Assembly (NCBI GenBank): GCA_913065125.1
Contig: CAJYAG010000001.1
Span: 434,001 to 498,000, forward strand
DNA length: 64,000 nt
Direction of reading: 5' to 3'
Origin: an uncultured Flavobacteriaceae bacterium
GTDB taxonomy: Bacteria; Bacteroidota; Bacteroidia; Flavobacteriales; Flavobacteriaceae
The position numbers and the translations under genes were made by a program. The notes below the pieces were generated by a model, which saw only the letters and a list, made by a program, of their open reading frames with translations, did not search any database and had not been told where the DNA came from. Positions 4,320 through 49,426 of the stretch are shown piece after piece (positions within the stretch are counted from its first letter, which is position 1; each line of letters begins with the position of its first letter).

Positions 4320-4323
4320 GTTG

Positions 4324-8023: not shown

Positions 8024-8033
8024 TTTTGTTCTG

Positions 8034-8166: not shown

Positions 8167-9717
8167 ATGAGAAAAATAGAAATTTTATGGGTTGATGATG
8201 AGATAGATTTATTAAAACCTCATATTCTATTTTTAGAAAATAAAAATTACAATGTAACCAAATGTACCAATGGTGCTGATGCGATTGATTTGGTTGATGA
8301 ACAAAATTTTGATATTGTTTTTTTAGACGAAAACATGCCAGGAATTACAGGTTTAGAAACCTTGGCAGAAATCAAACAAAAGCAACAAAATCTTCCTGTT
8401 GTAATGATTACAAAAAGCGAGGAAGAATATATTATGGAAGAAGCCATTGGTTCTAAAATTGCTGATTATTTGATAAAACCTGTAAATCCGAATCAGATTT
8501 TATTGAGTTTAAAAAAGAATTTAAATCATTCTAAATTAATTTCTGATAAAACCACTTCGAATTACCAACAAGAGTTTCGAAAAATTTCGATGGAATTAGC
8601 CATGGTAAATTCGTGCGAAGAGTGGATTGATATTTATAAAAAGTTGGTTCATTGGGAATTAGAATTAGAAAACATTAACGACGCCGGAATGTTAGGCATT
8701 TTAGAAAGTCAGAAAAACGAAGCGAATTCTTTGTTTTTTAAATTCATCAAAAAGAATTACGAAGACTTTTTAACGTCAGATGACAAACCCATTTTTTCGC
8801 ATACCTTATTAAAAGATGTGGTGTTTCCTGAATTAAAAACTTCAGAAAACGGAACCTTATTAGTGGTTATTGACAATCTTCGTTTAGATCAATTTAGAAT
8901 TTTAGAACCGTACATTAACAATCATTTTAAGAAAGAAAAAGAACATTCGTTTTTTAGCATTTTACCAACAGCAACACAATATTCTAGAAACGCAATATTT
9001 TCAGGAATGATGCCTTCTGAAATGGAAAAAATGTATCCAGAGTTTTGGAAAAACGACACGGACGAAGGTGGAAAAAACTTGTACGAAAATGAATTTTTAT
9101 CAGCACAGATAAAACGATTAAACTTACCAATACAGCACGAATTTTACAAGATTACCAATCTTAAAAACGGAAAAGAATTGGCAGACAATTACAACGCAAC
9201 CAAGCAAAACGATTTAACGGTTATTGTTTATAATTTTGTCGATATGATTTCACATGCCAAAACAGAAATGGAAGTGATTAAAGAATTGGCAGGTGATGAC
9301 AAAGCGTACCGATCGTTAACAGAAAGTTGGTTCCGGAATTCGCCTTTGTTAGACATTCTTCAGAAAGCACAAAAATTAGGGCAAAAATTAATTATTACTA
9401 CAGATCACGGAACGATTAATTGTAAAAATCCTACCAAAGTAATTGGAGATAAAAATGCAAGTTCTAATCTGCGTTACAAAACAGGTAGAAGCTTAAGTTA
9501 TAATGAAAAAGATGTATATGCTGTCCGCAATCCAAAAGATATCTTCTTACCAACAACGGCAATGAATAGCTCGTTTATTTTTGCAAAAGAAGATTTATTT
9601 TTAGCGTATCAGAACAATTACAATCATTATGTAAAGTATTATAAAAACACCTATCAACATGGCGGAATTTCTTTAGAAGAAATGATTATTCCGTGTGCGG
9701 TTTATGAGGCAAAATGA
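8167..9717 (+). CDS. porX: PorX, PglZ-domain response regulator of T9SS
   Basis: Two-component response regulator that controls type IX secretion and gliding genes in Bacteroidota. The 516 residues match PorX. A receiver domain (about 3-120) has the acidic pair Asp10/Asp11, phosphoacceptor Asp54 in FLDENMPG, and Lys in LIKPVNP. A helical linker follows, then an alkaline-phosphatase-fold PglZ domain (about 220-516) with metal-site motifs such as VIDNLRLDQ and TTDHGT. Its kinase PorY and partner sigma factor are usually encoded elsewhere and I do not see them here. The window has several T9SS substrates (15809, 47210). The 3' end is partly duplicated downstream. Confidence 0.93.
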   Translation: MRKIEILWVDDEIDLLKPHILFLENKNYNVTKCTNGADAIDLVDEQNFDIVFLDENMPGITGLETLAEIKQKQQNLPVVMITKSEEEYIMEEAIGSKIADYLIKPVNPNQILLSLKKNLNHSKLISDKTTSNYQQEFRKISMELAMVNSCEEWIDIYKKLVHWELELENINDAGMLGILESQKNEANSLFFKFIKKNYEDFLTSDDKPIFSHTLLKDVVFPELKTSENGTLLVVIDNLRLDQFRILEPYINNHFKKEKEHSFFSILPTATQYSRNAIFSGMMPSEMEKMYPEFWKNDTDEGGKNLYENEFLSAQIKRLNLPIQHEFYKITNLKNGKELADNYNATKQNDLTVIVYNFVDMISHAKTEMEVIKELAGDDKAYRSLTESWFRNSPLLDILQKAQKLGQKLIITTDHGTINCKNPTKVIGDKNASSNLRYKTGRSLSYNEKDVYAVRNPKDIFLPTTAMNSSFIFAKEDLFLAYQNNYNHYVKYYKNTYQHGGISLEEMIIPCAVYEAK

Positions 9718-9724
9718 TTTGCTC

Positions 9725-9754
9725 TTGTCATTCCTGCCTAAGCAAGAATGACAA
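9725..9754. repeat. REP-like hairpin behind porX
   Basis: TTGTCATTCCTGC and GCAAGAATGACAA form 13-bp arms with one mismatch around a 4-base loop, 8 bp after the porX stop. The GTCATTC...GAATGAC type recurs in intergenic regions of Flavobacteriia. It may also act as a terminator. Confidence 0.7.
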
Positions 9755-9755
9755 C

Positions 9756-9831
9756 ATAAAAATATCTATCAACATGGCGGAATTTCTTTAGAAGAAATGA
9801 TTATTCCTTGTGCAGTTTATGAGGCTAAATA
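9756..9831 (+). pseudogene. Duplicated 3' fragment of porX
   Basis: These bases repeat the end of porX (9641-9716) at an offset of exactly 115 bp. About 76 bp align, with six differences before the homology ends at the stop codon. Within the codons, four changes are silent third-base changes (AAC/AAT, CCG/CCT, GCG/GCA, GCA/GCT) and one is ACC/ATC. The copy lacks the TGA, running on to a TAA a few codons later, and has no start, so it is not expressed as a gene. The pattern resembles a remnant of a diverged porX allele rather than a fresh copy. Confidence 0.85.
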
Positions 9832-9858
9832 TTTTTTTGAAATAGTAACATAAAACAG

Positions 9859-12800
9859 CTATACAGGAATAAATATAGTAACAGATGTTCCTTCATTTAT
9901 TTTTGATGTTATCGTAAATTCTCCTTGAATGTTTTGAATTCGTTCTTGTACTGTAAATAACCCAAAACCAGAGCCTGAGTAACTTTTATTATTATTTAAA
10001 ATTGACGTATTGAACCCAACTCCATTATCGGTAAGAAGAATGGTAATGCCAAGTTGATTCTTATCAAGTTGTAACGTTATCAAAGAAGCTTTGGCGTATT
10101 TTATAGTGTTTTTTATCAATTCTTGTATACACCTATATAGTAAAATAGATTTTACATCACTTAATTTAATAATGCTTTCATTACTGTTTAGTTTACACTT
10201 AATTTTATGTGTGCTTTCTACATCATCAAGCAACCAATTTAATGCATCAATAATTCCTAATTGGTATAAAACAGGCGGAGAAAGTTCGTAGGTAATTTTA
10301 CGACTATTTTCTAAAGCTTCAGTAACATTTTTCTCAATAAAGTTTAAGTCTTCATCTATAGATTTTAATTCTGAGTTTTTCTTTAACTCATTAATTCTCA
10401 TTTTAGAAATCACTAAAGATTGACTTAAATGATCGTGTATGTTTAAAGCAATTTCTTTTTTCTGCTTTTCTTCAATCAAAGTCAATTCGGTAGTCATTTT
10501 TTGAAGTGATTTTTGGTATTCTTGTATTTCTTGTTTTGCTAAAACTCCTTCTGTGATATCTCTTGCAGAAGTAACATAGTAGCTAATTTTTCCTTCTTTA
10601 TAAACTGGAGATGATGAAAATTCTAACCAAACAAAATGCCCTTCTTTATGACGAACTCTAAAAGAATACACTTTAGATGTTAGATTTTTAAATACTTTTT
10701 GCCCCATTGCATTTTTTAACAATTGAATATCATCTTTATGAACTGCACTAAAAACTTTTTTACCTAAAAAATCTGCTTGCTCATACCCTAACAGCGATTT
10801 TACAGAAGGACTGATATATATAAACGAACTATCTGGTTCTTGCAAACAGATTAAGTCATTAGAATTATCTGTCAATATACGATACATTTCATCTGCCTTT
10901 TTAATTTTATCTACTGCTCTTTTTTGCAAAGTAATATCTTGGCAAGTTCCAGATAAATTAATCACTTCCCCATCATCTCCTAAAACAGGTTTGCATATAG
11001 ATCTAATCCATTTTTCGACACCATCAGGTTGAATAATTCTATGTTCAATTTCAAAAGGTTTTTCTTGAAGAATAGAATTAAGTACCAGCTCTTTGTCTTC
11101 AGGATGAATTATTTTAATCTGAGTTTCAAAATCGGGCACACCTTTCTTTGGTTCAAAACCAAAAATATGAAATGTTTCTTCTGACCATTCTACCTCTTGC
11201 GTTGAAGGAGTTAATATCCAGCTTCCTATTTTTGCTAATTTCTGTGCTTCATTTAATTTACTTAAAGATTCTTTTGTTGCTAGTTCTGCATCTTTTATAC
11301 TTTGAATGCTTTGACTACTAACTGGTACTGTTTTTTGTTCTATTGCAGATTGAGGAATTGGAATTGAAATTACTGCTGCAAACTCCTCTCCTTTAAGGGT
11401 TTTATAATTTATTTCTGAAGTAAATGTTTTCTTATTATTCCATATCGCTTCTATAAACTTTGCAAATACTTTACTTGATCCAGGTCCAAATACATTTTGA
11501 AGATTCTCAAAAAACTCTTGACGGTTATTTGCTTTAAATATTTTTAAAGTTGTATCATTTACTTTGTTTACCTTTATTTGATCAATAAGCGAAAATAACA
11601 CTTTAGGATGTTGTTCTAAATAGATTCTAATATTTGGTATTTTAAGCTTTCTAAGTTCATCTATTTCTGCTATCAGTAAGCTTAAATCTTCTTGCCAAAT
11701 AGAAGCTGTTGAGTTGTTAAATAGTTTTTTATATCTTTCTGTTATGATTAAATTTTTCTCTTCAATTTGTTTTTGCTCAGTAATATCTTTTGTTACTCCG
11801 AAGATGCTTTTTTCAGATTTTTTTTCAAGAGCCATAATATATAAGGTTCTTATTTCTCCAGATGGTCGCTTAATTCTAAACTCAAAAGGAACAAACTTCT
11901 TCTTTGTTAACAAAGAATTAATTCCTTGTTCCATTTTATATAAATCTTCGGGCAAAATAGTTTTAGAAACATTTTCGTTTGAAGGATAAAAACTTCCTTT
12001 AGCAACTCCGTAAATATTATACATTTCATCAGACCATTCGGCTGAATCTGTTGTCATATCCCATTTCCAACTCCCAACATGACTTAATTTTTGAGCCTCA
12101 TTTAAGGCGCTATTTAATTCATATAATCTTTCAGTTTGAAAATCTAAAGTGTGTTGTTTAATCTTTTGCTCAGTAATATCTTGCGAAACTCCTCTTCTAC
12201 CAATAATTTCATTTTTATCGTTATAAACTGCTTCTCCTATATTTCGTATCCAACGAGTCTCATTTTTAAAATTAGTCATTTCTAATTCGATCTCAAACGG
12301 AATTCCTTCATTTGCAAGAAGTACAGTTGAAGTGATAAGTTTATTTCTAGATTCTTCACTAAAAACGCTTAGAATTCTTTCAATATCTGGTACACTTTCT
12401 TTAAACTCTGTACCGTATATTTGATGAATTGCCTCTGACCAAAAAATGGTATCTGTTAACTTATCATATCTCCAGTAACCAATTTTTGCCATTCTACCGG
12501 CTTCTTTTAATGAGTATTCATTTTCTCTTACTAATTCTAAAGTAGATTCCAGATTTTGCTTAGAGTTTTCTAACTCAAATTGTGCTTTTTTAGAATTTGT
12601 AATATCTTGAACTACACCTCTTCTTGAAACAATTTTATTTTGATTGTTATATACTGGATGAACTACAAGTCTTAACCAAATCTCTTCTTTTCTTAGGTTG
12701 GTCATTTTTACCTCAATATCAATTGGAATCCCTTCTGAATCTAGTTTCAAACCAGCTTCTATAGCTTTTTTTCGAGATTCATCATCAAAAAGTTCTAAGG

Positions 12801-36106: not shown

Positions 36107-36725
36107 AAAAATTAGAGGACACAAACGCATTTGGAAAGCGATTGATAATTGGGTAGAAAATTCTAAGAAATTAGATATCAATTATTTAAAAAGAAATCAA
36201 AGAGAATATGTAAAAGTTTGGATACAACCTTTTAGAAATATTTCTATTTTAAATAGTGTTTTTGCGCCACCAAAAGGAAAAACTCGGAAGAAAATTATTG
36301 CAGGAATCTTAGAAATTCATAATTGTTGGAAACAAGAATTAGATAAGTTAAATGAACCATATTACTTACGAATTTGGTTTTACAATAACGATGTTTCTAA
36401 CTCTCAAGTGGTTTGTGCCATTGGAGAATGTTTAGATTTTTATGAAATCACCTTTCACAAACCCAAAAACAACAAACCATTTCCTTCTGATTCTTTAGGA
36501 TTGCAATGGGAATACCGACTTAATGAAAATCATTTTACAGTTGATGAAATTGGTGAACCAGACGAGTTTTATTCTCTTGAAGATTATATTGACAATAAAA
36601 AGATGATTGAAAGAATCATGAAAAACCCTAAAACACGCATTTCAAAATTCACCAACAAAGAAGGAAAAACCACCACGTACTATTCTGAAAAACACGCAGA
36701 TGTTTGGCTAGGTTCCGCTAACTAA
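36093..36725 (+). CDS. Hypothetical protein co-translated with MepB-like gene
   Basis: 210-residue basic soluble protein that I do not recognise. The N-terminus is rich in Lys and Arg (MNRTKKIRGHKRIWK), suggesting nucleic acid contact, though this is only an impression. Aromatic, beta-rich segments follow (YYLRIWFYNNDV, LQWEYRLNENHF), and the C-terminus has a helix-rich KMIERIMKNPKTRISKFTNKEG region. Its start lies within the MepB-like gene (14-bp overlap). Its last 8 bp overlap the convergent recG. Confidence 0.68.
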   Translation: MNRTKKIRGHKRIWKAIDNWVENSKKLDINYLKRNQREYVKVWIQPFRNISILNSVFAPPKGKTRKKIIAGILEIHNCWKQELDKLNEPYYLRIWFYNNDVSNSQVVCAIGECLDFYEITFHKPKNNKPFPSDSLGLQWEYRLNENHFTVDEIGEPDEFYSLEDYIDNKKMIERIMKNPKTRISKFTNKEGKTTTYYSEKHADVWLGSAN

Positions 36726-38817
36726 TGTTCGCCCATAATCCGCTTGTTTTTTGGAGTTGTGTATAGGTTTTTAAAGTAATATTGTTTTCTGGTTTTGATA
36801 AATCTTCATCATTAGTTAATAAATCAATCGCAGCATTTCTGGCGGTAACCAAGATTGAAGAATCTTTTACAATATCAGCAATTTTTAAATTTAAAACGCC
36901 GCTCTGTTGTGTTCCCATGATATTTCCTGGACCACGAAGCTTTAAATCAACTTCCGCAATTTTAAATCCGTCTGAAGTTTCTACCATCGTTTTTAAACGC
37001 GTTTTTGCATCCGCAGACAATTTTACATCCGACAATAAAATACAATAACTTTGATCTGCTCCTCGCCCAACACGTCCTCGTAGTTGATGTAATTGACTCA
37101 ACCCAAAACGCTCAGAACTTTCAATCACCATTACACTTGCATTTGGAACATTTACGCCAACTTCAATCACTGTAGTTGCTACCATAATCTGCGTTTCTCC
37201 TTTTACAAAACGTTGCATTTCGTATTCTTTATCTGCAGGTTTCATTTTTCCGTGTACAATACTAATTTGATATTGTGGCATCGGAAAATCTCTTGAAATA
37301 CTTTCGTAACCGTCCATTAAATCTTTATAATCCATTGCGGCAGATTCTTGAATTAATGGATACACAACATATACTTGTCTTCCTTTTGCAATTTCGTCTT
37401 TTAAAAATTTAAAAACTGCCAATCTGTTGCTGTCAAATCTGTGTACCGTTTTTACTTCTTTTCTTCCTGGTGGCATTTCGTCAATGACAGAAATATCTAA
37501 ATCGCCATAAACCGACATTGCCAAAGTTCTCGGAATTGGAGTTGCTGTCATCACCAAAACATGTGGCGGCAATTCATTTTTTTTCCACATTTTTGAACGT
37601 TGTGCTACACCAAAACGATGTTGTTCATCAATAATTGCAATTCCTAAATTCTTAAAAATCACTTTATCTTCTAATAACGCGTGTGTTCCTATTAATATAT
37701 CTAACGTTCCGTCTTCTAATTGTTGATGAATTTCTCGACGTTTCTTCGCTTTTACAGAACCTGTCAATAATGCTACCTTTATATTAGCATATTTTAATAA
37801 CTCCACAATTGCATTGTAATGTTGTGTGGCTAATATTTCTGTTGGCGCCATTAAAGACGCTTGAAATCCGTTATCGATTGCCAACAACATGGTTAATAAC
37901 GCAACAATTGTTTTTCCTGAACCCACATCGCCTTGCAACAATCTGTTCATGTGAATTCCGGTTGCCAAATCTCTACGTATTTCTTTCAACACACGTTTTT
38001 GTGCGTTGGTTAAATCAAACGGTAAATTGTTTTTGTAAAAATCATTGAATTTTTCTCCGACGTTTTCAAAAACATATCCTTTTAATTTTGATTTTCGAAT
38101 GATTTTCTTTCGGATGAGTTGTAGTTGAATGAAAAATAATTCTTCAAATTTTAATCTGTACTGTGCTTTTGCAAGGTTTTCTTGACTTTTAGGAAAATGA
38201 ATATTTAACAACGCCTCTTTCTTAGACATCAACCCGTATTGTTTGATAAATGTTTCTGATAATGATTCGTTTATTTTTCCATCTAGCTGAATAAACAAGT
38301 TTTGGATGAGCGTTCTTATTACTTTATTGCTAATATTTTTATTCCCTAAGGTTTCGGTGGATGGATATACAGGTTGCATTGCAGATTGTACTTTCTTTTT
38401 AGATTCAGAAAGCAACTCCATTTCTGGATGCGGGATCGAAAAAGACTTATTAAAACTGTTTAGTTTTCCATAAATAACATACGGAACATTCACTTTTAAA
38501 GCATCTTTAATCCATTTTACTCCTTTAAACCAAACCAATTCCATCGTGCCAGTTTCATCAACAAAGGTAGCAACCAGTCTACTTCCGCGTTTTTGTTGTA
38601 CCGTTATAACGCGAGTTATTTTACCAACAATTTGCACATCTGCTCCGCTTTCTTGTAATTGATTGATTTTATAAAACTGTGTTTTATCTATATATCTAAA
38701 CGGAAATAAGTGTAATAAATCATTACACGTTTTAATTTTCAACTCTTGATAAAGCAATGAAGCCCTATTAGAAGTTACTCCATTTATATATGTAATTGGA
38801 TTGTTTAAATTAATCAA
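36718..38817 (-). CDS. recG: ATP-dependent DNA helicase RecG
   Basis: 699-residue branch-migration helicase that remodels stalled forks and Holliday junctions. The N-terminal wedge/OB domain (about 1-245) holds the DETGTMELVWFKG region. Helicase lobe 1 has the Walker A GDVGSGKTIVA and the DEQH box. Lobe 2 has TTVIEVGVNVPNAS and the QLRGRVGRG motif VI. The C-terminal RecG signature is LRGPGNIMGTQQSG. The only start between the upstream stop and the conserved region is TTG at 38817. Divergent from the chaperone-like gene. Confidence 0.95.
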   Translation of the reverse strand: MINLNNPITYINGVTSNRASLLYQELKIKTCNDLLHLFPFRYIDKTQFYKINQLQESGADVQIVGKITRVITVQQKRGSRLVATFVDETGTMELVWFKGVKWIKDALKVNVPYVIYGKLNSFNKSFSIPHPEMELLSESKKKVQSAMQPVYPSTETLGNKNISNKVIRTLIQNLFIQLDGKINESLSETFIKQYGLMSKKEALLNIHFPKSQENLAKAQYRLKFEELFFIQLQLIRKKIIRKSKLKGYVFENVGEKFNDFYKNNLPFDLTNAQKRVLKEIRRDLATGIHMNRLLQGDVGSGKTIVALLTMLLAIDNGFQASLMAPTEILATQHYNAIVELLKYANIKVALLTGSVKAKKRREIHQQLEDGTLDILIGTHALLEDKVIFKNLGIAIIDEQHRFGVAQRSKMWKKNELPPHVLVMTATPIPRTLAMSVYGDLDISVIDEMPPGRKEVKTVHRFDSNRLAVFKFLKDEIAKGRQVYVVYPLIQESAAMDYKDLMDGYESISRDFPMPQYQISIVHGKMKPADKEYEMQRFVKGETQIMVATTVIEVGVNVPNASVMVIESSERFGLSQLHQLRGRVGRGADQSYCILLSDVKLSADAKTRLKTMVETSDGFKIAEVDLKLRGPGNIMGTQQSGVLNLKIADIVKDSSILVTARNAAIDLLTNDEDLSKPENNITLKTYTQLQKTSGLWANIS

Positions 38818-38937: not shown

Positions 38938-39801
38938 ATGCCCTTAAAAACTAAGTTGTCCCTAAGACTAGTTTCGATTTTATTATTAGTTTCTGCTCAT
39001 ATTACTTATGGTCAGGACAAATCGAACCAAACCAACAGTGCTCGTAAATCTACGGGTGTTTCTGTTGCACCAGCCCATTTTCACTTCAGTCAAAAGTCTG
39101 GTGAAGTAAAAACTTACGATATTACCGTAAACAACAGTACTTCTACTCCAAAACAATTCAATGTTAATATGTATGATTTTAACATGAACGGTAAAGGAAA
39201 GAGTAGTTTTTTACCTGCTGGTGAAGGAAAATACTCATTATCTAAATGGTTAAGTGTTTCTCCGACATTTATTGAGTTAAAACCTTTTGAAAAAAAATTA
39301 GTCAAAGTTACAGTTAGCGTCCCAAATACAAGTGAAGGAGACAAAGCTGCTTGGTCTATACTAATGGTAGAACAAGTTGCTCCGAGAAAATCGCTAGCAA
39401 CTACTAACAATGATAACAGTACAATCGCTTTAGGTGTTGTACCCACTTTTGCTTTTGGAATTTTTGCTTATCAAAACCCTCCAAATGTAATAGACAATAA
39501 AATAGAATTTACAGATTTTCAGTTAAAAAGCGGTAGTGCTTCTAAATTTTTATACTTAGAAGTACAAAATACTGGAGATGGAATTGCTTATTGTACCTCA
39601 TATATAGATTTAACAAATTTAGATACAGGAGTTCAGCAACGTTTAAAAGTTAAGAAATTTACAATAGTTCCTGATTTAATTAGAGATTTTAGTTTTTCAC
39701 TTAAAGGATTAGGAAAAGGAAAATATTTAGCTGTAGGAGTTTTAGATTATGAAAACTCTGAAGAAATACAAGCAGCTAAACTAGAGTTCGAAATTAATTA
39801 A
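38938..39801 (+). CDS. Periplasmic PapD/DUF916-like chaperone
   Basis: 287-residue exported protein with a signal peptide (about 1-24, ILLLVSAHITYGQ). The first Ig-like domain has SVAPAHFHFSQKSGE, YDITVNNSTSTPKQFNVNMY, then SPTFIELKPFEKKLVKVTV and DKAAWSILMVEQ. This layout recalls pilus chaperones (PapD, COG3121) and DUF916 proteins. A second beta domain follows from about 165 to 287. I chose ATG 38938; an upstream in-frame start would add 25 residues without family character. It leads a cluster with two secreted subunit-like proteins and a giant outer-membrane-like protein, so a subunit-chaperone role is inferred. Confidence 0.72.
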   Translation: MPLKTKLSLRLVSILLLVSAHITYGQDKSNQTNSARKSTGVSVAPAHFHFSQKSGEVKTYDITVNNSTSTPKQFNVNMYDFNMNGKGKSSFLPAGEGKYSLSKWLSVSPTFIELKPFEKKLVKVTVSVPNTSEGDKAAWSILMVEQVAPRKSLATTNNDNSTIALGVVPTFAFGIFAYQNPPNVIDNKIEFTDFQLKSGSASKFLYLEVQNTGDGIAYCTSYIDLTNLDTGVQQRLKVKKFTIVPDLIRDFSFSLKGLGKGKYLAVGVLDYENSEEIQAAKLEFEIN

Positions 39802-39844
39802 ATTTAACAAACAGTATTATTAACCCCCTTAATTATTATTTATT

Positions 39845-40615
39845 ATGAAAAATTTTTCAAAATTATTATCAACAATGGTCTTAATTGGGTTTGCTTTTTC
39901 AGCAAATGCTCAATTAGTTGACGAAAAAGACGTATCTATTACTTTAGATATGCAACCTGTATTAGAGTTAGAAATGACAACTCCTAATCAAATTGAATTT
40001 GTATTTGATGACATTACTGAATACCAATCTGGTATTACTAATTACGGAGCGACTATCTTAAAAGTTAGCGCAACAGTAAATTGGGATTTATACGCAGTTG
40101 GTAGATCACAAACTGGAAACAGATTTTGGGATCAACAAGTAAGTTATGGATCAACATCAAATTCTGTTAACCAATTACCATTAAGTTTATTAGAACTTAG
40201 ACAAAGTAGAGCTAACTCTGGCGGAACAGCTGGTACAAGTGTTGTAGATTATAGTGCAGCTTTTTCAACAAATCAAGCAGCAGCTACAGGAAACAATAGT
40301 TTATTTGTAAACAACGACGGTTCTGCTACACCTCCAACAATTGCAAACAAATATATTGCTGGACATGCAGGAACTACTGGAACAGGAGATACAATGACTG
40401 CCGGTACATACCTAAACAATTCAGGAACGTCTTCTAACTTTTACTATGTATTAGATTACAGAATTGCTCCAGGATTACCTGCTATTTTCCCTAATGCTTT
40501 TCAAGCTGATAGCACTACTGCAGAGGATTTAGTAACAAGTGGTACTGCAAATTCTTATGCTGAAGGTGGAGTTTACACGATGTATGTACAATATGTTTTA
40601 TTAGAAGATCAATAA
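39845..40615 (+). CDS. Secreted subunit-like protein A
   Basis: 256 residues with a signal peptide (about 1-22, TMVLIGFAFSANAQ). The mature protein is beta-rich and low in charge: a first strand region DVSITLDMQPVLELEMTT, then EFVFDDITEYQSGITNYGA, a Gly/Ser/Thr/Ala-rich central part (about 125-205), and an ending MYVQYVLLEDQ. The motif (F)xDxxxYxxGIT and the terminal beta-strand recur in the next gene, so the two are paralogues. A strong terminator follows at once. I propose the major surface or fibre subunit; this is inference. No known pilin family is recognised. Confidence 0.68.
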   Translation: MKNFSKLLSTMVLIGFAFSANAQLVDEKDVSITLDMQPVLELEMTTPNQIEFVFDDITEYQSGITNYGATILKVSATVNWDLYAVGRSQTGNRFWDQQVSYGSTSNSVNQLPLSLLELRQSRANSGGTAGTSVVDYSAAFSTNQAAATGNNSLFVNNDGSATPPTIANKYIAGHAGTTGTGDTMTAGTYLNNSGTSSNFYYVLDYRIAPGLPAIFPNAFQADSTTAEDLVTSGTANSYAEGGVYTMYVQYVLLEDQ

Positions 40616-40637
40616 AAACTTCATTTATAATATTTTA

Positions 40638-40669
40638 ATAAGGATGTAATTTGTAAATTACATCCTTAT
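40638..40669 (+). terminator. Internal terminator after subunit A
   Basis: ATAAGGATGTAATT pairs with AATTACATCCTTAT, followed by TATTTATTA. It sits between subunit A and subunit B, 15 bp before the latter's start. It would make subunit A mRNA more abundant than the distal genes. Confidence 0.8.
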
Positions 40670-40684
40670 TTATTACAATTAATT

Positions 40685-41326
40685 TTGCAACAATATAAAA
40701 GAAAATATCAAACATTTTTTACAGCTACTTTTTTATTAATTAGCAGTGTCTTTTATGCCCAAATACATTGTGGTGTTGTAGAACTACAGTCAAGTTCAAC
40801 TGTTGATGCAAATTTTACCTTTACCGATTTTTCTAAATATAATGCTGGAATTACACTATTAAGTGTTGCTCGATTAAGAGTTAAAGTGGAGAGTAAAACT
40901 CCGATAGATCTAAATTGTTCCTGGAAATTAAGAATGTTTATAGAAAACAATTCTGGTGCTGGAACTTTAGCTGACAAATGGGAAGAAATAACTTTATACG
41001 GTAATGGTAATTCTTTAAAACCTTCTATTAGTGATTTAGAAGTAAGAGTAAATAATAATTGTGGAACCCCTTTAAATACAAGTTTTAGGTCTTTTACAGA
41101 TGTTAATGATATTTTAGACATCATTGAAGAATTGGTACCTCAAGTAATTGTACCCGCAGGGTCTTGTACTGCAAGCGGTACAAAAAATGTAAATGGCCCA
41201 GGAAGTTATTTAACCCACTACAACGAATATAGTTTTAATGTAGATTTAAGAATAAAGCCTGGATTTAAATTTAACCCAGGAGTTTATAAATTAAATATTA
41301 AATTTAGACTAGAAGAAGTGAAATAA
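40685..41326 (+). CDS. Secreted subunit-like protein B
   Basis: 213 residues. Signal peptide about 1-26 (TATFLLISSVFYAQ). The mature part repeats the plan of protein A: FTFTDFSKYNAGITLLSVA, then strands with SWKLRMFIENNSGAG and NGNSLKPSISDLEVRV, and an ending NIKFRLEEVK. It carries several cysteines (e.g. CGV, NCSW, NNCGTP, GSCTASG). The start must be TTG at 40685, as no ATG or GTG is in frame. It is 4 bp upstream of the giant gene. Probably a minor or tip subunit; function inferred. Confidence 0.66.
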   Translation: MQQYKRKYQTFFTATFLLISSVFYAQIHCGVVELQSSSTVDANFTFTDFSKYNAGITLLSVARLRVKVESKTPIDLNCSWKLRMFIENNSGAGTLADKWEEITLYGNGNSLKPSISDLEVRVNNNCGTPLNTSFRSFTDVNDILDIIEELVPQVIVPAGSCTASGTKNVNGPGSYLTHYNEYSFNVDLRIKPGFKFNPGVYKLNIKFRLEEVK

Positions 41327-41330
41327 TGTT

Positions 41331-44300
41331 TTGAAAAATAACTATTCTCTAAATTTATCTTATAGAACCCTACTTCTATTGGTTCTAATCTTCTCGGCTA
41401 GTATTGGGCATTCCCAATTAAAAGATACTGTTCTTTTTATTCCAAAAACAAAATACCAAAGTAAAGACCTCATTACAAAAACAGATTCTATAAATCTGTT
41501 AAAAAGAAGAGCTGTGCTTACTGCAAAAAACTCAAGTGATTTATCAAAAAGAATTGAAGAACTCGATTCTATTTTAAAATTTTACAAGAAAAGTTCAAAA
41601 GAAGTAATAGATGACATTGTTAAAAAAGATGCTATAAATGCTGCAAAAAAAAATGATAGGGCACAAAAAAACAGAGACACCATAATAAAACCAAAAAAAT
41701 TAAGCAACGCAGAGAAAAGGCAAGCCAGATTAAATGCTATTATAAGAAGAAATGATTCTTTAAAACAGGTAAAAGCTTACAAGGCGGCTGCAAGAATTGT
41801 CCAAAGAAAAAAAGATTCCATTAGATTAGTTGAAAATAAAATTAAAAAGAAATTAAAACTCGATTCAATAAAAATTGCAAAAGCTAAGCGTGTTGCTAAA
41901 AGCACAGAAGACTCAATTATAATTGCCAATAAAGTTAAAGCACTTCAACAAAAAAACGATTCAATAAAAATTGCCTTAAACAATAGTATTTTAAAAAGAA
42001 AACAAGATTCTATTATTGTGGCAAACAATCTCAGAAAAGCCAAACTGAGAAACGATTCTATTAGAATTGCTAATGCTAATATAGAAGCACAAAAAAGACA
42101 AGATTCATTAAATACATTAAAAGCGATAAGAATTGCCCAATTAAGACAAGACTCTATCAGAATTGCCAAAACAAAACTAACTATTCAACGAAAAAGAGAT
42201 TCGGTAAAACAAGTTGAAGCTTATAGAATTGCACAGTTTAAGCAAGATTCTATCAGAATTGCAAAAGCAAATATTCTCGCAAAAAAAAGAAGAGATTCTT
42301 TAGATAGATTTGATGCAATTAGAAGAGCTAAATTAAGACAAGATTCTATTAAAATTGCTCAATCTAATCTTGCTGCCCAATTAAAACTAGATTCTATAAA
42401 TCAAGTAGAATCAATTAGAAAAGCACAATATATACAAGATTCTATTAGAATTGCAAAAGCTAATTTTGATGCCAAAAGAAGAAGCGATTCTATCGTTTTA
42501 GCAGACATCAATAGAAAGGTTAAATTTATTCAAGACTCTATTAGAATTGCTAAAGCAAATATTGAGGCAAAAATAAAAACTGAAGCATTAAATAATGCCA
42601 TAGCATTACAAAAAGCAGCAAAAAGAAAACAAGATTCTATTAAGTCGTCTCTTACAAGATTAAGTGTTACCGAACTAACAAAAAGAAAACAAGATTCTAT
42701 AAATAATATCATAAATTCAATTTTAGCCAAACAAAGAATTCAGGATTCAATTAAAGTTGCAGAAGCTAAAATTTTTGCCGAAGAAGAAATTAAGAGAAAA
42801 CAAGACTCAATTATCAACAGTGTTGCAAAAAGCAAAATTGATAATATATTTAATGGAAATGATTCTACAAAAATTGCATTAAATAACACAAATAAAAATC
42901 GAATATTCAACGATTCTATTGATGACAGTCACCTTATTCATTCTGATTTAGTTGATACTCCTAAATTTTTAGATACAGTTGCCTACACTAGAACTGGAAA
43001 TATATTGTCAAAATTTGTAAGAACAGAAATTGATTTAAAAGATGGACAAATTGTATCGAACGTATTAAAGATTATTAATATTGGCAATCAACCTATTACA
43101 TTTACAACCGACTTATTAATTCCTGGCGGGTGGACAAGAATTGACAACGCGAATAAAAAGTATATTGCAAAGCAAAACGATACTACAATTGTTCCTATAA
43201 TTATTAGTCCAACTAAATTGGTAAACGGTAATACAGAAATTATTATCAATTCTTTTATTATTGATACAGACCAACGACAATTAGCAAATAATTATTTTTC
43301 TTTAAAAACCAAAAAGAAAGTCGGTTGGGATATTGAGCTTACAGATTCTCAAAGCATTTATTTAAAAAACGGAGAAAAAGAGAAGCGCTTTAAGTTTCAA
43401 ATTCACAATTCTGGAAATTACAAACAAGATTTATTTGTTAACTACTCTATTCCTAAAAAAGATTTATTTCTTTCAGATACTTTGGGTAAACCTATAAACC
43501 AACCAAATATTACATTCAGCCTAGAAGCAAGAGAGAAAAAATATTTTGATTATCTCATTACATTTAAAGATATGAATGTAAGAAATTTTAGAAGAATTTC
43601 TTACAATACGTATACCCCTAATAAAACAGAAGATAAAAAAACACATAGCTTAATTATTAATAGTAGAGAACCTAGATCTAATAAATATTCTTTACAAAAA
43701 AGAACAAAAGTTGATTTTATTAAGTTGCCCAACGAAATAAAAGCAAATCCTTATGGATACCCATACCTACCAATAACTGTAATTATGAGCGCACAAAATA
43801 TTTTAAGCGAGCGTTCTTTTTTATCACTAAACTTAAGGGGTTTTAAACAATTGAGTCCGACCGCTAATTTAATTTACTCAACAGATCTTAGTTATAGCAA
43901 TTCTTACTATACACAAAACATTTTAAATAATGCACCTTGGTATGTTGGTTATTTTGATGATAAAAAAACAATAGAAGTTGGACAAGTAAGTGGAAATATC
44001 ACTGGAGTTTCTAGTTCTGGTTACGGAGTAAAAGGTTCTTATCGTTTTAATGATACTCATGAACTAGGCGCATTTTATGTAAACTCAAACGGTTTTGCAG
44101 CATCAAACAGTTCTATAAGTTTTGGTGGATGGTACAATTTTAATTACAACGAAGATATAAGAATAAAAACACAACTCGGTAGAAATATAAACAGCATTTC
44201 TAACAGAAGTATCAATGTATTATCTATTCAGCCATCAATAAGAATTAATAAAAATCATAACTTTTCTTTATTAAGTTCATTTACTAATAAAAAAATGGAT

Positions 44301-45848
44301 AATGAACCTGTATTTTTTAATCCGAATGGGATCTTATTTGGTCTAAGTTATAGTTCAAGTTTTTTTAACAAAAGAGTTAAATACAACTTTAATACACGAT
44401 TTAACGACAAAAATTTTAGTTACGGTAACTTTAATAGAATGTATTTAAATCAACGAACTACATATGCTATTAATAATACATGGAGTGCTTTTTTATCTAA
44501 TAATTACCAACAATCTTCTAATTTTAATCCAATAACTGGTGATGAAAATTACTCTCAAAAATCATTCTACAACAATTTAGTTTTTAATACAAGTAATGAA
44601 ACTGGGAACTATCAGGCAGGGTTGTATTATGAATATAGAAACTTTCCAAATAGTATAATTCATAATAGAGGATTAACATTTCGCTTTTCTAATTATAATT
44701 TTGAAAAACAGTTTATCAACTCGATCTATTTAAAAGCAGGTTACACAAAACCAGAATTAAATAATATTGATAATAAAGATTATTTTAATTTTGAATTGTC
44801 TTCTTTAACAAGATATAGAACATGGAATTTTAATGCAAAATATAACTTAGGTGCTTTTTCATCGTTAACATCACAACAAGCATTAAACGACTTTATAACA
44901 CCGCAATCAATACGAATCTCTGCACAAAATCAATATTTATTTTCAAACAGAAAATTAGTAATAGAATCAAATGCAATTTACAGTTACAACAACGTGTTTA
45001 ACAATCACACATTAGGCATATATCCAACAATCTATTTCTTTAATAATTCTGGTTGGCGCTTTGGAATGAGTACAAATTACACATTTACTACGAGAGATTT
45101 TAGTTCGGTTTACGATCCAATAGACAATCAAGCAGGAGATCAATTTACTGGTGCAAATCAGGTTTCAAGTAGTAATTTTAATTTAAACTTTAGCCTTAAA
45201 AAAGACTTCGGAATTCCAATTCCGTTTGTAGACAGAACAGCTGCAGATGCTAAATTTATTGCCTTTTTAGATGTTAACGGAAACGGTATTAGAGACAATG
45301 ATGAAACGTTGCTACAAAACGTTGTAGTTAAAATTGATAAAAAAGAAGTTTTAACAGATATCAATGGTGAAGCAGTCATGCAAAATTTATTAAAAGATGA
45401 GTATGAATTTGATGCCTTTTCTTTAGAAAATTTAAATGGATGGTTTCCAAACATCAATAATACTGTTATAATTGAGAATGATAACATTGTTTATGTTCCT
45501 TTTGTTAGAGGAGTAAAAGTATATGGTGATGTTGTTTTAGACAGACAAAAAATTGCTGTAGCAGATGAAGCTCCTTTAGATTTATCAAGAATAAAAATAA
45601 GTGCAACAATTGGAGAGAAAGTTTATGGTGCTTTAACAAACAGCAAGGGTAGATTTGAGTTTTATTTGCCTTTTGGAGATTATGTAATTACCATGGATGA
45701 AAGCATTTTAAACAGCCGTTTGCAAATTACAAGAAACAACATTCCTCTAAAATTAAAAAGTACACAAGACGGCGTTTATGTCTCTTTTTACATCATAGAA
45801 AAACGTAGAAAAGTAATTTTTACAGATTTTACTAAAAAGAAAAATTAA
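41331..45848 (+). CDS. Giant usher-like outer membrane protein with 16-residue repeats
   Basis: 1505 residues. Signal peptide about 1-29 (LLVLIFSASIGHSQ). Residues 162-417 are sixteen unbroken 16-residue repeats beginning DSI and rich in Lys, Arg, Ala, Ile and Gln; looser copies run to about 510. Residues about 550-790 look like two Ig-like domains (NVLKIINIGNQPITFTTDLL; FKFQIHNSGNYKQDLFVNY). Residues about 800-1290 are strand-rich with alternating aromatic residues, as in an outer-membrane barrel. After it come an SdrB-like segment (FLDVNGNGIRDNDETLLQNV) and a carboxypeptidase-regulatory-like domain. This order resembles a fimbrial usher with barrel and C-terminal beta domains, preceded by a long periplasmic helical arm. 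Start is TTG at 41331. No established family name is claimed. Confidence 0.72.
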   Translation: MKNNYSLNLSYRTLLLLVLIFSASIGHSQLKDTVLFIPKTKYQSKDLITKTDSINLLKRRAVLTAKNSSDLSKRIEELDSILKFYKKSSKEVIDDIVKKDAINAAKKNDRAQKNRDTIIKPKKLSNAEKRQARLNAIIRRNDSLKQVKAYKAAARIVQRKKDSIRLVENKIKKKLKLDSIKIAKAKRVAKSTEDSIIIANKVKALQQKNDSIKIALNNSILKRKQDSIIVANNLRKAKLRNDSIRIANANIEAQKRQDSLNTLKAIRIAQLRQDSIRIAKTKLTIQRKRDSVKQVEAYRIAQFKQDSIRIAKANILAKKRRDSLDRFDAIRRAKLRQDSIKIAQSNLAAQLKLDSINQVESIRKAQYIQDSIRIAKANFDAKRRSDSIVLADINRKVKFIQDSIRIAKANIEAKIKTEALNNAIALQKAAKRKQDSIKSSLTRLSVTELTKRKQDSINNIINSILAKQRIQDSIKVAEAKIFAEEEIKRKQDSIINSVAKSKIDNIFNGNDSTKIALNNTNKNRIFNDSIDDSHLIHSDLVDTPKFLDTVAYTRTGNILSKFVRTEIDLKDGQIVSNVLKIINIGNQPITFTTDLLIPGGWTRIDNANKKYIAKQNDTTIVPIIISPTKLVNGNTEIIINSFIIDTDQRQLANNYFSLKTKKKVGWDIELTDSQSIYLKNGEKEKRFKFQIHNSGNYKQDLFVNYSIPKKDLFLSDTLGKPINQPNITFSLEAREKKYFDYLITFKDMNVRNFRRISYNTYTPNKTEDKKTHSLIINSREPRSNKYSLQKRTKVDFIKLPNEIKANPYGYPYLPITVIMSAQNILSERSFLSLNLRGFKQLSPTANLIYSTDLSYSNSYYTQNILNNAPWYVGYFDDKKTIEVGQVSGNITGVSSSGYGVKGSYRFNDTHELGAFYVNSNGFAASNSSISFGGWYNFNYNEDIRIKTQLGRNINSISNRSINVLSIQPSIRINKNHNFSLLSSFTNKKMDNEPVFFNPNGILFGLSYSSSFFNKRVKYNFNTRFNDKNFSYGNFNRMYLNQRTTYAINNTWSAFLSNNYQQSSNFNPITGDENYSQKSFYNNLVFNTSNETGNYQAGLYYEYRNFPNSIIHNRGLTFRFSNYNFEKQFINSIYLKAGYTKPELNNIDNKDYFNFELSSLTRYRTWNFNAKYNLGAFSSLTSQQALNDFITPQSIRISAQNQYLFSNRKLVIESNAIYSYNNVFNNHTLGIYPTIYFFNNSGWRFGMSTNYTFTTRDFSSVYDPIDNQAGDQFTGANQVSSSNFNLNFSLKKDFGIPIPFVDRTAADAKFIAFLDVNGNGIRDNDETLLQNVVVKIDKKEVLTDINGEAVMQNLLKDEYEFDAFSLENLNGWFPNINNTVIIENDNIVYVPFVRGVKVYGDVVLDRQKIAVADEAPLDLSRIKISATIGEKVYGALTNSKGRFEFYLPFGDYVITMDESILNSRLQITRNNIPLKLKSTQDGVYVSFYIIEKRRKVIFTDFTKKKN
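41814..42581 (+). repeat. Sixteen 48-bp tandem coding repeats
   Basis: Each 48-bp unit encodes DS(I/L/V)xxAxxxxxAxxRx. DS recurs every 16 residues from residue 162 through 402 without indels. Many neighbours alternate between DSIRIAKANIxAKxRR and DSxxQVEAxRxAQxxQ, a 96-bp higher-order unit. The nucleotide copies are diverged, so the array is old. Confidence 0.9.
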
Positions 45849-45917: not shown

Positions 45918-47129
45918 ATGAGACTACACAGAAATTTAACATATGCCGTAATCGATAGCTTACGCGATGTTTTTAATGAAGGAGAATATGCTGGTAAAGC
46001 AGTAGAAAAAGCATTAAAAAGAGACAAACGTTGGGGAAGCAGAGATCGTAAATTTGTTGCAGAAACTATTTACGAAATTGTAAGATGGAAGCGTTTATAT
46101 GCAGAAATTGCAGAAGTAAAAGAGCCTTTTGACAGACCAAATTTATGGAGATTATTTACCGTTTGGTGTGTTTTAAAAGGAATACCACTACCCGATTGGA
46201 ATCAAATTGAAGAAACACCAACAAGAAGAATCAAAGGAAAATTTGATGAACTTTCTAAAATAAGAAAATACAGAGAATCTATTCCAGATTGGATGGATGA
46301 AATCTGTGTAAAAGAATTAGGTGAAAAACTGTGGACCAAAGAAATGGCTGCTCTTAACAAACAAGCTGATGTAGTTTTAAGAGTAAATACGCTCAATATT
46401 ACCAAAGAAAAACTCCAAAAGGAATTAGAACAAGAAAGTATTTTTACAGAAACACTTCCAAATCATCCAGATGCATTAAAGTTGGTAGAAAGAGCAAATG
46501 TTTTTAAAACTGATGCCTTTAAAAAAGGATATTTCGAAGTTCAAGATGCTTCTTCTCAATTAGTTGCTGCTTATTTAGATGTGAAACCCGGAATGAAAGT
46601 AGTAGATACTTGTGCTGGTGCTGGCGGAAAAACATTACATTTATCTGCATTAATGCAAAATAAAGGACAAATTGTTGCCATGGATATTTACGAAAGTAAA
46701 TTGCGAAAATTAAAGGTTAGAGCAAAAAGAAACAAAGCACACAACATCGATTTAAAAGAAATAAATTCTACCAAAGTAATTAAGAAATTACACAACAAAG
46801 CTGACAGAGTTTTAATTGATGCTCCTTGTTCTGGTTTGGGCGTTTTACGTAGAAATCCAGATTCTAAATGGAAATTACAACCAGAATTTATAGACAACAT
46901 CAAAGCAATACAACAAGATATTTTGCAAAGTTATTCTAAAATGGTAAAACCAGGCGGAAAAATGGTGTATGCAACCTGCTCTGTGCTTCCTTCTGAAAAT
47001 CAAGAACAAGTAAAACAATTTTTAACTTCAGAATCAGGAAAAGAGTTTATATTTGTTAGTGATAAAAAAATATTAGCTTCAGAATCTGGCTATGATGGAT
47101 TCTATATGGCATTGTTAGAAAAAAAATAA
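45918..47129 (+). CDS. RsmB/NOP2-type rRNA m5C methyltransferase
   Basis: 403-residue SAM-dependent RNA cytosine-5 methyltransferase. N-terminal region about 1-140 is NusB-like or RNA-binding. The Rossmann domain (about 200-400) has the SAM motif DTCAGAGGKTLHLSALM, then MDIYESKL. Motif IV, with the first catalytic Cys, is DAPCSGLGVLRRNPD; motif VI, with the second, is YATCSVLPSENQEQV. Which rRNA position is modified (RsmB-like m5C967 or RsmF-like) cannot be decided. Separate from the upstream cluster by 69 bp. ATG start. Confidence 0.9.
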   Translation: MRLHRNLTYAVIDSLRDVFNEGEYAGKAVEKALKRDKRWGSRDRKFVAETIYEIVRWKRLYAEIAEVKEPFDRPNLWRLFTVWCVLKGIPLPDWNQIEETPTRRIKGKFDELSKIRKYRESIPDWMDEICVKELGEKLWTKEMAALNKQADVVLRVNTLNITKEKLQKELEQESIFTETLPNHPDALKLVERANVFKTDAFKKGYFEVQDASSQLVAAYLDVKPGMKVVDTCAGAGGKTLHLSALMQNKGQIVAMDIYESKLRKLKVRAKRNKAHNIDLKEINSTKVIKKLHNKADRVLIDAPCSGLGVLRRNPDSKWKLQPEFIDNIKAIQQDILQSYSKMVKPGGKMVYATCSVLPSENQEQVKQFLTSESGKEFIFVSDKKILASESGYDGFYMALLEKK

Positions 47130-47209: not shown

Positions 47210-49426
47210 ATGGTAAAAAAATTACTTTCTTTTTATTTTCTGTTGTTTGTATCATTACTCTCTTTTTCTCAAGAGTCTTATTACAATGATGTAGACCTAA
47301 CACTTACAGGAATTCAATTAAAAAATGCATTAGCAACTAAAATTACAAACACACATATTAGAAAATTAGATTACACTCCAGATATCTGGACAGTTAGTAA
47401 AATTACAGATGCCAACCCAACTAATGCCAATGAAGTGATTTTATTTTACGGATGGGAAAATGGTACTGATAGTGATGGTACAAACGATTTGTATAGAAAT
47501 AACGCATATCAGGATGGTAGTTCTTCAAACAGTCTTTTATGGAATAGAGAGCATGTATATTCTAAATCTTTGGCAAATCCAAGTTTAACTACAGACGATC
47601 CAGGTCCTGGTACAGATGCACACAACTTAAGACCTGCTGACAAAGATAGAAACTCTACTAGAAGCAATCGTAAATTTGGCGCTGGTTCTGGGACTGCATC
47701 GGGTTTTTCTAGTGTAACATATCCTGGTTTATCTGGACCAAATACAAACGCATGGTATCCTGGTGATGAATGGAAAGGCGATGTTGCTAGAGTTGTAATG
47801 TATATGTATTTACGTTATGGCGATCAATGTTTACCAACAGGTGTTGGTATTGGTGATAAACAGTTTACACCAGATGATATGATTGACTTATTTCTACAAT
47901 GGAATGTAGAAGATCCTGTTTCTGATTTAGAGAAAAAACGCAATACGTATCATGAAGACACTACTACCAACACAACAGCTCAAGGAAATAGAAATCCATT
48001 TATAGACAATCCGTATTTAGCGACTCGTATTTGGGGTGGAGATTCTGCACAAGATACATGGGGAATTTACACAGGTTCTGATACAGAAGCACCTACTACT
48101 CCAACGAACGTTGTTGCCAGTAACCAAACAACAACTTCAATCGATTTAACCTGGGATGCTTCAACAGATAATGTTGGTGTTACGGGGTATAATGTGTATG
48201 TAGATGATGTTTTAACTGCACAAACTGCAAATACAACAATTACCATTTCTGGTTTAACAACAAACACAACCTATGCTTTTACGATAGAAGCAAAAGATAT
48301 TATCAATAACAAATCTGCAAAAAGTACAGTTGTAAATGCTGCAACCTTACAAGACACAGAAGCTCCAACTGTTCCTTCAAATATTGTAGCGAGCAATATT
48401 TCTGGAACAACATTTAAAATTACTTGGGGTGCTGCTACAGACAATACGGCTGTAACTGGTTATGATATTTTTGTTAATGGTACGTTTACAGCTTCTACTA
48501 CTACAGAATTAACCTATACTTTTTCAGGTTTAACCGCCTCTACAACATACGCTGTTACTGTTTTAGCTAAAGACGCTGCTGATAATAAATCTGCACAAAG
48601 TGCTGCTGTAAATATTACTACAACTGATGGTTCTTCTAATGGGGTTACCGAATTATTTATTTCAGAATATGTAGAACCAGATGGTGGAAATAACAAGGCG
48701 ATAGAAATTGTAAATTTAACAAGTTCTTCAATTGATTTAACTGCGTATTCAATTAAAAAACAATCAAATGGAGGTTCTTGGGTAGATGAATTGCCATTGA
48801 CAAAATCCGAATTCTTAGTAAATTCAGCAAATACAAGTATTTTACCTAATGATGTTTTTGTTATCATACATGCTGGAAGCGCTGATACTAATTTAACAAA
48901 CAATGCAGATTTAATCGTTCCAAATAATCAAGATGCACCTTATAAATATGGATCACCTGCTAATTTTAATGGAAACGATCCTGTGGGCTTATTTAAAAAT
49001 GGTGTGTTGATTGATATTGTTGGAGAAGAAAATAATGGTAGTGATCATATTAAAGACATGACTTTACGTAGAAAAGCTACTATCTCAACTCCAAATGGTA
49101 CTTTTGATATAAATGAATGGGAAGTTCTAGCTAAAAATACTTTTGATGGAATTGGAAGTCATACTGCAACATTAAGTGTAGATAAAATTGACAATGCATT
49201 GTTTAAATTATATCCAAACCCATTAAATGGTAATGTATTAAACATTGTAAATTCTTCTTCAATAAAAATTAATGAAGTAAAAGTTTATACCATAAACGGA
49301 AAAGAAGTAATATCTATTTCTAATCCAACATCTAGTATTAACCTAAATGGTTTATACAATGGTTTGTATATTATCAAACTAATGTCAGACAAAGGCACGA
49401 GCATACAAAAACTCATAAAAAACTAA
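47210..49426 (+). CDS. T9SS-secreted endonuclease I-type nuclease
   Basis: 738-residue multidomain exported nuclease. Signal peptide about 1-20 (LFVSLLSFSQ). Endonuclease I domain about 25-280, with the beta-beta-alpha metal site WNREHVYSKS and DAHNLRPADKDRNSTRSNRK. Two fibronectin type III domains follow (about 295-385 and 390-475, each beginning EAPT-PSN-V-AS), then a lamin-tail domain (about 480-640, ELFISEYVEPDGG). The C-terminal type A sorting signal is LYPNPLNGN...VYTINGKEV...YIIKLMS. Function: extracellular DNA or RNA degradation for nutrient scavenging, exported by the PorX-controlled system. A strong terminator follows. Confidence 0.92.
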   Translation: MVKKLLSFYFLLFVSLLSFSQESYYNDVDLTLTGIQLKNALATKITNTHIRKLDYTPDIWTVSKITDANPTNANEVILFYGWENGTDSDGTNDLYRNNAYQDGSSSNSLLWNREHVYSKSLANPSLTTDDPGPGTDAHNLRPADKDRNSTRSNRKFGAGSGTASGFSSVTYPGLSGPNTNAWYPGDEWKGDVARVVMYMYLRYGDQCLPTGVGIGDKQFTPDDMIDLFLQWNVEDPVSDLEKKRNTYHEDTTTNTTAQGNRNPFIDNPYLATRIWGGDSAQDTWGIYTGSDTEAPTTPTNVVASNQTTTSIDLTWDASTDNVGVTGYNVYVDDVLTAQTANTTITISGLTTNTTYAFTIEAKDIINNKSAKSTVVNAATLQDTEAPTVPSNIVASNISGTTFKITWGAATDNTAVTGYDIFVNGTFTASTTTELTYTFSGLTASTTYAVTVLAKDAADNKSAQSAAVNITTTDGSSNGVTELFISEYVEPDGGNNKAIEIVNLTSSSIDLTAYSIKKQSNGGSWVDELPLTKSEFLVNSANTSILPNDVFVIIHAGSADTNLTNNADLIVPNNQDAPYKYGSPANFNGNDPVGLFKNGVLIDIVGEENNGSDHIKDMTLRRKATISTPNGTFDINEWEVLAKNTFDGIGSHTATLSVDKIDNALFKLYPNPLNGNVLNIVNSSSIKINEVKVYTINGKEVISISNPTSSINLNGLYNGLYIIKLMSDKGTSIQKLIKN

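Follow-up and report, generated by a model that had tools for sequence, protein, structure and literature searches.

What do four adjacent plus-strand genes of an uncultured Flavobacteriaceae bacterium, each with a signal-peptide-like start (judged by eye), build together? The genes, here called C, S1, S2 and U, lie at positions 38,938 to 45,848 of the 64,000-nucleotide stretch of DNA that was analysed (the window). A first-pass annotation made from the sequence letters had read them as a chaperone/usher-like surface-fibre system that fits no named family. The four open reading frames (ORFs) it had proposed are all present:

38938..39801, plus strand: C, ORF of 287 amino acids (aa) counted from ATG; periplasmic chaperone-like, WxLIP/PapD-like immunoglobulin (Ig)-type fold
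39845..40615, plus strand: S1, ORF of 256 aa; major fibre subunit, homologue of TLP-1/TLP-2
40685..41326, plus strand: S2, ORF of 213 aa with a TTG start; minor subunit, paralogue of S1, proposed tip
41331..45848, plus strand: U, ORF of 1505 aa with a TTG start; usher-like outer-membrane protein

Spacers of 43, 69 and 4 nucleotides (nt) separate C from S1, S1 from S2 and S2 from U. We find that C-S1-S2-U is a real system whose members are kept together in other genomes. Judged by sequence similarity, the S1 family comprises relatives of the solved filament proteins TLP-1 and TLP-2, and the Protein Data Bank (PDB) thus already holds fibres of the type that S1 would form. The predicted structure of U supports a protein that works like an usher. 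We consider it probable that the locus encodes a distinct chaperone-usher-like fibre pathway of Bacteroidota. The chaperone/usher-like part of the first-pass reading is upheld by the gene set, the architecture of U and the match of S1 to the TLP proteins; the sequence tests give no placement in the classical family.

Conservation of the gene set

The linkage of the four genes was assessed in two samples. For the first, the GTDB species collection was scanned with a profile of U, yielding 27 loci, in which genes were assigned by profiles of each of the four families. The set is complete in 20 of the 27, in the order C-S1-S2-U in every one of the 20. Six of the seven incomplete loci touch a contig end (L053, L060, L068, L077, L078 and L079); the seventh, L072, holds a truncated U adjoining a recG-like gene (by eye), and C, S1 and S2 were not found there. 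S1 occurs in two copies in L067, and C and U are each split across two ORFs in L076. The taxa represented are Polaribacter, Flavicella, Flavobacterium, Crocinitomicaceae, other Flavobacteriales, Bacteroidales, Bacteroidia and Bacteroidetes, and L079 is from a Chlorobiota metagenome-assembled genome holding just a C-terminal piece of U.

The second sample consisted of 395 genomes of the class, against which the U profile was run; it overlaps the first, L116 and L071 being one locus. U matches were obtained in 70 of the 395 genomes at E ≤ 0.001 and in 31, the window's own genome included, at E ≤ 1e-100. Mapping covered 30 regions from 29 of these 31 genomes (all but the window's genome, G000, and G791) and revealed the four families together in 25 loci, the remaining five (L125, L130, L132, L142 and L102) being at contig ends. 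S2 is fused to S1 in four of the complete loci, and C is split in two in L123. Rearranged gene orders, with the set still together, are seen in L136, L138, L141, L175, L176 and G791 (L084). A recognisable C lies in the same stretch as U in seven of ten hand-picked loci with weaker U matches. The first-pass annotation had made its reading depend on co-occurrence of the four homologues, and they do co-occur in both samples. Since the flanking genes vary between groups, the linkage of the set is more than mere inheritance of a neighbourhood.

The distribution within the window's genus is patchy, with matches in 3 of 57 congeners, several of whose genomes are incomplete. In the window, the set is flanked by recG (36718-38817, minus strand; RecG_dom3_C, E 9.2e-25) and an rsmB/F-type rRNA methyltransferase gene (45918-47129; E 1.1e-44). 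One of the three matching congeners, G020, has just a remnant of U between recG-like and rsmB-like genes (L005), a 58-residue C-terminal piece with two stop codons, which marks a loss of the locus in that genome. Two genes downstream of U, positions 47210-49426 encode a protein of the endonuclease I type that carries fn3 repeats, a lamin-tail domain and a type IX secretion system (T9SS) tail (6.1e-10).

S1, S2 and the TLP filaments

Pfam gave nothing useful for S1 and S2, and NCBIfam nothing relevant for the four proteins. The first-pass statement that the system fits no named family needs qualifying for S1, which has full-length relatives in the PDB, a fact that the sequence letters could not reveal. 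Searched against PDB sequences, the window's S1 matches 9IKK (TLP-2) with E 8.2e-39 and 9IKJ (TLP-1) with E 1.1e-37, and with a profile built from 22 S1 proteins the values for these entries are E 1.1e-58 and 3.5e-57, respectively. Residues 24-254 of S1 align with residues 2-236 of TLP-2, and the two proteins are 38% identical. The PDB chain starts at the residue that follows the judged signal peptide of S1 and ends about one residue before the end of S1, so that the alignment extends over the entire mature chain. We take TLP-1 and TLP-2 to be the CryoSeek filaments from filtered pond water (Wang et al., PNAS 2024).

To find proteins closer to TLP-2, we searched 395 genomes of the phylum, 36 of the family of G1052 and 87 of the family of G898. 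Matches were found in two (one of them the window's own genome), five and 11 genomes, respectively, and the two of 395 indicate that S1 is patchily distributed. The closest relative found is a protein of G1290, with 60% identity in the family search and 55% by BLASTP, around which C, S1, S2 and U stand side by side (L172). Six such loci were fetched from the 16 matching genomes; five have all four families, and L174 is without C, its contig ending just behind U. Because the closest TLP-2 relatives sit in C-S1-S2-U loci, the TLP proteins would belong to this operon type. Their exact source species was not found among the genomes searched. The likeness concerns the filament subunit alone, as no chaperone, tip or exporter is named for the PDB entries. 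S1 is also the most conserved part of the system, with 54-88% identity to the window's protein, compared to 39-84% for C, 32-75% for S2 and 29-75% for U.

A further S1 paralogue (2e-90 with the S1 profile) stands as an orphan 5.4 kb beyond the end of the window (G000:C1:503364-504194; L083:7365-8195). The ORFs mapped on either side of it include no C, S2 or U, and the exporter of the window's locus may use this protein as an alternative to S1 in the shaft.

That S1 and S2 are paralogues with a common motif, as the first-pass annotation had it, is borne out by the sequences (FDDITEYQSGIT versus FTDFSKYNAGIT) and by their profiles, which match each other with 98% probability (E 6e-14). The S2 profile also matches the TLP proteins weakly (2.4e-4, positions 30-64). 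The distance from the mature start to the YxxG motif is 37 residues in all 22 S1 rows, whereas in S2 it is 26 residues in 18 of 23 rows and 25 in two; in the three outliers (L060, L065 and L075, with 10, 28 and 29) the script picked another Gln. The longer spacing corresponds to about 11 extra N-terminal residues, an additional strand, in S1. The mature S1 of the window is predicted to start at Gln23, and its N-terminal strand VSITLDMQP is a candidate donor strand; across the family, this strand displays alternating hydrophobic residues (V, I/V, L/M, L/M) with invariant T, D, Q and P between and behind them. S2 lacks the strand and has four conserved cysteines. In five loci (L125, L126, L128, L129 and L143), S2 and S1 are fused in proteins of 441-461 residues, where the S2 domain leads and S1, with its own strand, comes second. 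The missing strand and the S2-first fusions would place S2 ahead of S1, and by analogy with classical pili we lean towards S2 as the tip of the fibre.

The spacer between S1 and S2 contains one further element:

40637..40670, plus strand: hairpin between S1 and S2, 15 bp stem and 4 nt loop, followed by an A/U-rich stretch

The window's spacer folds with dG -16.3 and z -5.0. Folding with 60 shuffles each was applied to the spacers of 25 loci, namely the window, the 20 complete first-sample loci, L115, L118, L173 and L177, excluding the S1-S2 spacer of L173 (22 nt) and the C-S1 spacer of L066, which is too short. All 24 S1-S2 spacers of at least 25 nt fold strongly (z -2.3 to -8.6), with quite different stem sequences, compared to z below -2 in only two of 24 C-S1 spacers from the same loci (L074 and L177). 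The window's hairpin is absent from the output of a strict-consensus terminator scan, probably because its tail has too few T. As a yardstick, the fimA-fimI spacer of Escherichia coli K-12, where the small RNA FimR2 is annotated, shows no unusual fold (z 0.22). The hairpin may act as a partial terminator or stabilise the mRNA, as would be expected behind a major-subunit gene, and thereby keep S1 in excess.

The exporter candidate U, the chaperone candidate C and their classical counterparts

The AlphaFold2 model of U covers residues 536-1505, from which the model residues are numbered, and was built with 23 relatives. With a mean predicted local distance difference test score (pLDDT) of 83.9, it returns the architecture that the first-pass annotation had described, with Ig-like domains, a barrel and C-terminal beta domains. 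The absence of a barrel from 41331-45848 had been named there as fatal to the reading, and the model predicts one. Preceded by a helical arm, the features of U are:

41415..42950, plus strand: helical basic arm with 16-residue repeats (residues ~29-540; from periodicity, composition and DNA repeat)
42984..43340, plus strand: beta domain 1, Ig-like by strand pattern (model residues 17-135, DSSP)
43353..43724, plus strand: beta domain 2, Ig-like by strand pattern (model residues 140-263, DSSP)
43764..45218, plus strand: beta-barrel of ~24-26 strands, no plug-sized insertion (model residues 277-761)
45240..45545, plus strand: C-terminal domain 1, SdrD_B-like (model residues 769-870)
45594..45800, plus strand: C-terminal domain 2, carboxypeptidase-regulatory/prealbumin-like (model residues 887-955)

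DSSP assigns 27 strands to the barrel, and two neighbouring pairs look like broken single strands, hence the estimate of about 24-26. Pfam matches of the window's U and C are all below the curated cut-off; those of U are SdrD_B (0.00087) and CarboxypepD_reg (0.0021). When the model was compared with the PDB by Foldseek, FimD took ranks 1-6 (E from 4.5e-12 to 1.5e-10 over 817-855 columns, gaps included), followed by PapC (4.6e-8), and the top other bacterial outer-membrane barrel was LptDE (2.1e-6). Eukaryotic axoneme proteins also score high, we guess because of the Ig-like domains. With a second structure aligner, the FimD chain 9fxs_D spans the barrel into the C-terminal domains (model residues 271-954). 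As far as architecture goes, the predicted large barrel with C-terminal beta domains has the usher-type layout. Readings of U as a TonB receptor or as MtrB were set aside for the reasons given below for other large barrels.

C is most naturally read as an Ig-like periplasmic chaperone. Its Pfam matches are PF06030 (WxLIP_PGBD, 2.5e-5) and PapD_N (0.069) for the window's protein. Among 20 aligned members, WxLIP_PGBD is matched by 19 at E ≤ 1 (best 1.1e-9) and PapD_N (PF00345) by three (best 0.0094). WxL-interacting proteins (WxLIP, formerly DUF916) belong to a Gram-positive surface system; Pfam found no WxL partner at the window's locus. In a search of PDB sequences with the C profile, the best match was synaptotagmin (E 0.0011), with FimA-type proteins at 0.22 and worse, and we took these as chance matches between beta proteins. 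Two kinds of neighbour fit a periplasmic assembly line. A four-domain FKBP-type proline isomerase adjoins U in L133, L134, L136, L137, L141, L173, L175, L176 and L177 (tested on the protein of L177, 1.4e-85 in four stretches, and assigned elsewhere by similarity to it), and an OmpA-family protein adjoins C in L122, L124, L126 and L128 (tested on that of L128, 6e-14; the others by similarity).

Set beside FimC/FimD and PapD/PapC, the system has the same putative inventory: an Ig-like periplasmic chaperone, a major and a minor subunit, and a large barrel accompanied by beta domains in the periplasm and at the C-terminus. Several results weigh against this likeness. The predicted TM-score (pTM) of the U model is just 0.58. 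The Foldseek alignments to FimD have TM-scores of 0.17-0.28 by query length and a root-mean-square deviation (rmsd) of 17-24, so that the whole chains of U and FimD do not superpose. The second aligner ranks the barrel chain of the Mtr complex, which we take to be MtrB, first (Z 20, 436 residues), and FimD and PapC reach Z 13-15, the level of many unrelated barrels; the barrel alone thus does not single out ushers. A plug was not seen in the model, the longest inter-strand gap in 277-761 being 22 residues, and the tests made gave no link between the N-terminal domains of U and the N-domain of FimD; these two Ig-like domains and the lineage-specific arm set U apart. None of 24 U members matches the usher profile PF00577 at E ≤ 1. 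Profile-profile comparison by hhalign, with shallow profiles, showed no similarity, giving probabilities of 0.5% for U against five ushers, 4% for C against five chaperones and 3% for the subunits against eight pilins of E. coli K-12. A cross-check of U against the K-12 chaperones was likewise negative, and the U profile matched no PDB sequence. General Ig/ASH-type profiles match C as widely as WxLIP_PGBD does (for example Cep192_D6, 19 of 20, best 4.7e-7). Finally, the AlphaFold2 model of S1 with 21 relatives reached a pLDDT of 32, with a best fold-search E of 4.2, and gives no view of strand exchange. Given the missing sequence link and the lack of a plug-sized insertion, we say that U would work like an usher, not that it is one.

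The helical arm noted in the first pass is present, with its 16-residue repeat; its standing as part of the system is another matter, since it is a local addition confined to the window's close relatives. Between residues 162 and 402 it displays 16 DS motifs (DSI/DSV/DSL/DSN) exactly 16 residues apart, and its 512 residues include two Pro, one Gly, 122 K+R and 57 D+E; the underlying DNA repeats at 96 and 192 nt. The arm was found in three of 70 other U-like ORFs scored (a set that includes loci fetched twice, and in which those above 1100 residues were rechecked): L051 and L053, on one contig, and L054, where it has ~780 residues. L052, at 53% identity and with the same gene order, has no arm. 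Of 28 U-like ORFs longer than 1100 residues, 25 have instead a C-terminal extension reaching 133-337 residues past the end of the window's U, and no arm; relatives of 1100-1330 residues with such an extension include L127. No internal insertions of at least 25 residues were counted in the longer relatives. A straight helix rises 1.5 Å per residue, and 500 residues would thus measure about 75 nm, far beyond the depth of the periplasm, so the arm must fold back or bundle. A function as anchor, spacer or gate is our guess.

Proposed fibre assembly, alternative readings and related loci

In the pathway that we propose, C, S1, S2 and U would leave the cytoplasm via Sec. C would hold S1 and S2 in the periplasm and complete their fold. 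U would be the outer-membrane pore, its two periplasmic Ig-like domains receiving the chaperone-subunit complexes and its two C-terminal beta domains, next to the large barrel, handing the subunits on. S2, without an N-terminal extension, would pass first and form the tip, and S1 would polymerise behind it into a TLP-type filament on the surface, each S1 complementing the subunit in front with its own N-terminal strand. The hairpin behind S1 would ensure that more S1 is made than S2 and U. The arm that U has gained in this lineage probably extends through the periplasm in the direction of the cell wall.

The closest competitor differs from this pathway on descent alone and not on function: the locus could be a highly diverged classical or archaic (Csu-like) chaperone-usher system that descends from a common stock with FimC/FimD and whose sequence signal is lost. 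The same inventory of parts, the FimD and PapC matches at the top of the Foldseek ranking and the weak PapD_N matches of three chaperones speak for such an origin, whereas the usher profile, the profile-profile comparisons, the TM-scores and the model without a plug insertion do not. We give this reading somewhat less than an even chance. Alternatively, U might be some other large barrel with a separate role, S1 filaments being exported otherwise, for example by the T9SS. The Mtr-complex barrel as best match of the second aligner, and other large barrels scoring like ushers, would agree with this. Nevertheless, U travels with C, S1 and S2, the alignment to 9fxs_D continues from the barrel into the C-terminal domains, and no other exporter-like gene common to the mapped loci of both samples was seen by eye. 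Moreover, the first-pass remark that T9SS signals are absent was confirmed: none of C, S1, S2 and U matches the C-terminal sorting domain (Por_Secre_tail, Pfam) at E ≤ 10. A non-exporting U is accordingly improbable in our judgement.

The place of S2 within the fibre can also be read differently. The S2 gene comes after S1 and before U, as fimI comes after fimA in K-12, where FimI is considered to terminate the pilus; S2 might by this token be a base terminator or anchor. A terminator would, however, need the N-terminal extension that S2 does not have, and S2 precedes S1 in the five fusions, which makes a basal S2 unlikely compared to S2 at the tip. Type V (FimA/Mfa1-like) pili, finally, have lipoprotein precursors and use no usher. 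S1 and S2 have no FimA/Mfa1-type Pfam match at E ≤ 10, and their signal peptides are without a lipobox Cys (by eye), so that a type V fibre is hardly credible here, even though such pili occur in Bacteroidota (PMC5789003).

Other loci resemble C-S1-S2-U in layout. The window's genome has a second, divergent chaperone/usher-like locus (L045, G000:C4:22500-38500; 689-12784), which follows genes for an H-NOX protein (HNOB, 8.8e-38), a PAS histidine kinase and LytTR response regulators. Like the window's locus, it encodes a chaperone, small secreted proteins and an usher-like protein, here with C-terminal domains of SpaA/CarboxypepD-like type. It differs in that the chaperone is 20-22% identical, S1 and S2 have no BLAST match, the U-like protein has a lipobox-like start (by eye) and regulators lie upstream. 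By eye, L043, L044, L048 and L050 share this H-NOX arrangement, a type of locus found in Flavobacteriia, and it suggests nitric-oxide control of a surface fibre. A different chaperone/usher-type locus (L047:5955-15405) combines a DUF4402 subunit (2.1e-25) with an usher-like protein of 855 residues, for which a PF00577 match is not listed and whose start resembles archaic ushers. L036 (8661-12898) and L049 (6352-10600) contain a chaperone, an usher-like protein and then a protein of 476-477 residues (that of L036 without a Pfam match), with tandem small pilin-like genes upstream; they are another related fibre system.

Searches of open-licence papers brought up none recognised as describing the C-S1-S2-U operon, although one may exist elsewhere. 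The locus would place TLP-1 and TLP-2, filament proteins with bare names in the PDB, in a genetic context, together with a route of export and an assembly order that can be tested. The well-studied pili of Bacteroidota are, to our knowledge, built without an usher, and the present results indicate that the phylum has its own widespread chaperone-usher-like route. More tentatively, a Bacteroidota-wide pathway for TLP filaments may have reached the chaperone-usher layout with proteins that share no sequence kinship with the classical ones and a plug-less pore, to which one marine lineage has added an arm of 500-780 residues that perhaps gates or anchors the pore and spans the periplasm to the cell wall or inner membrane. 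Two questions thereby become testable: whether an usher-type pore can work without a plug, and whether chaperone-usher export is one family or a layout reached repeatedly.

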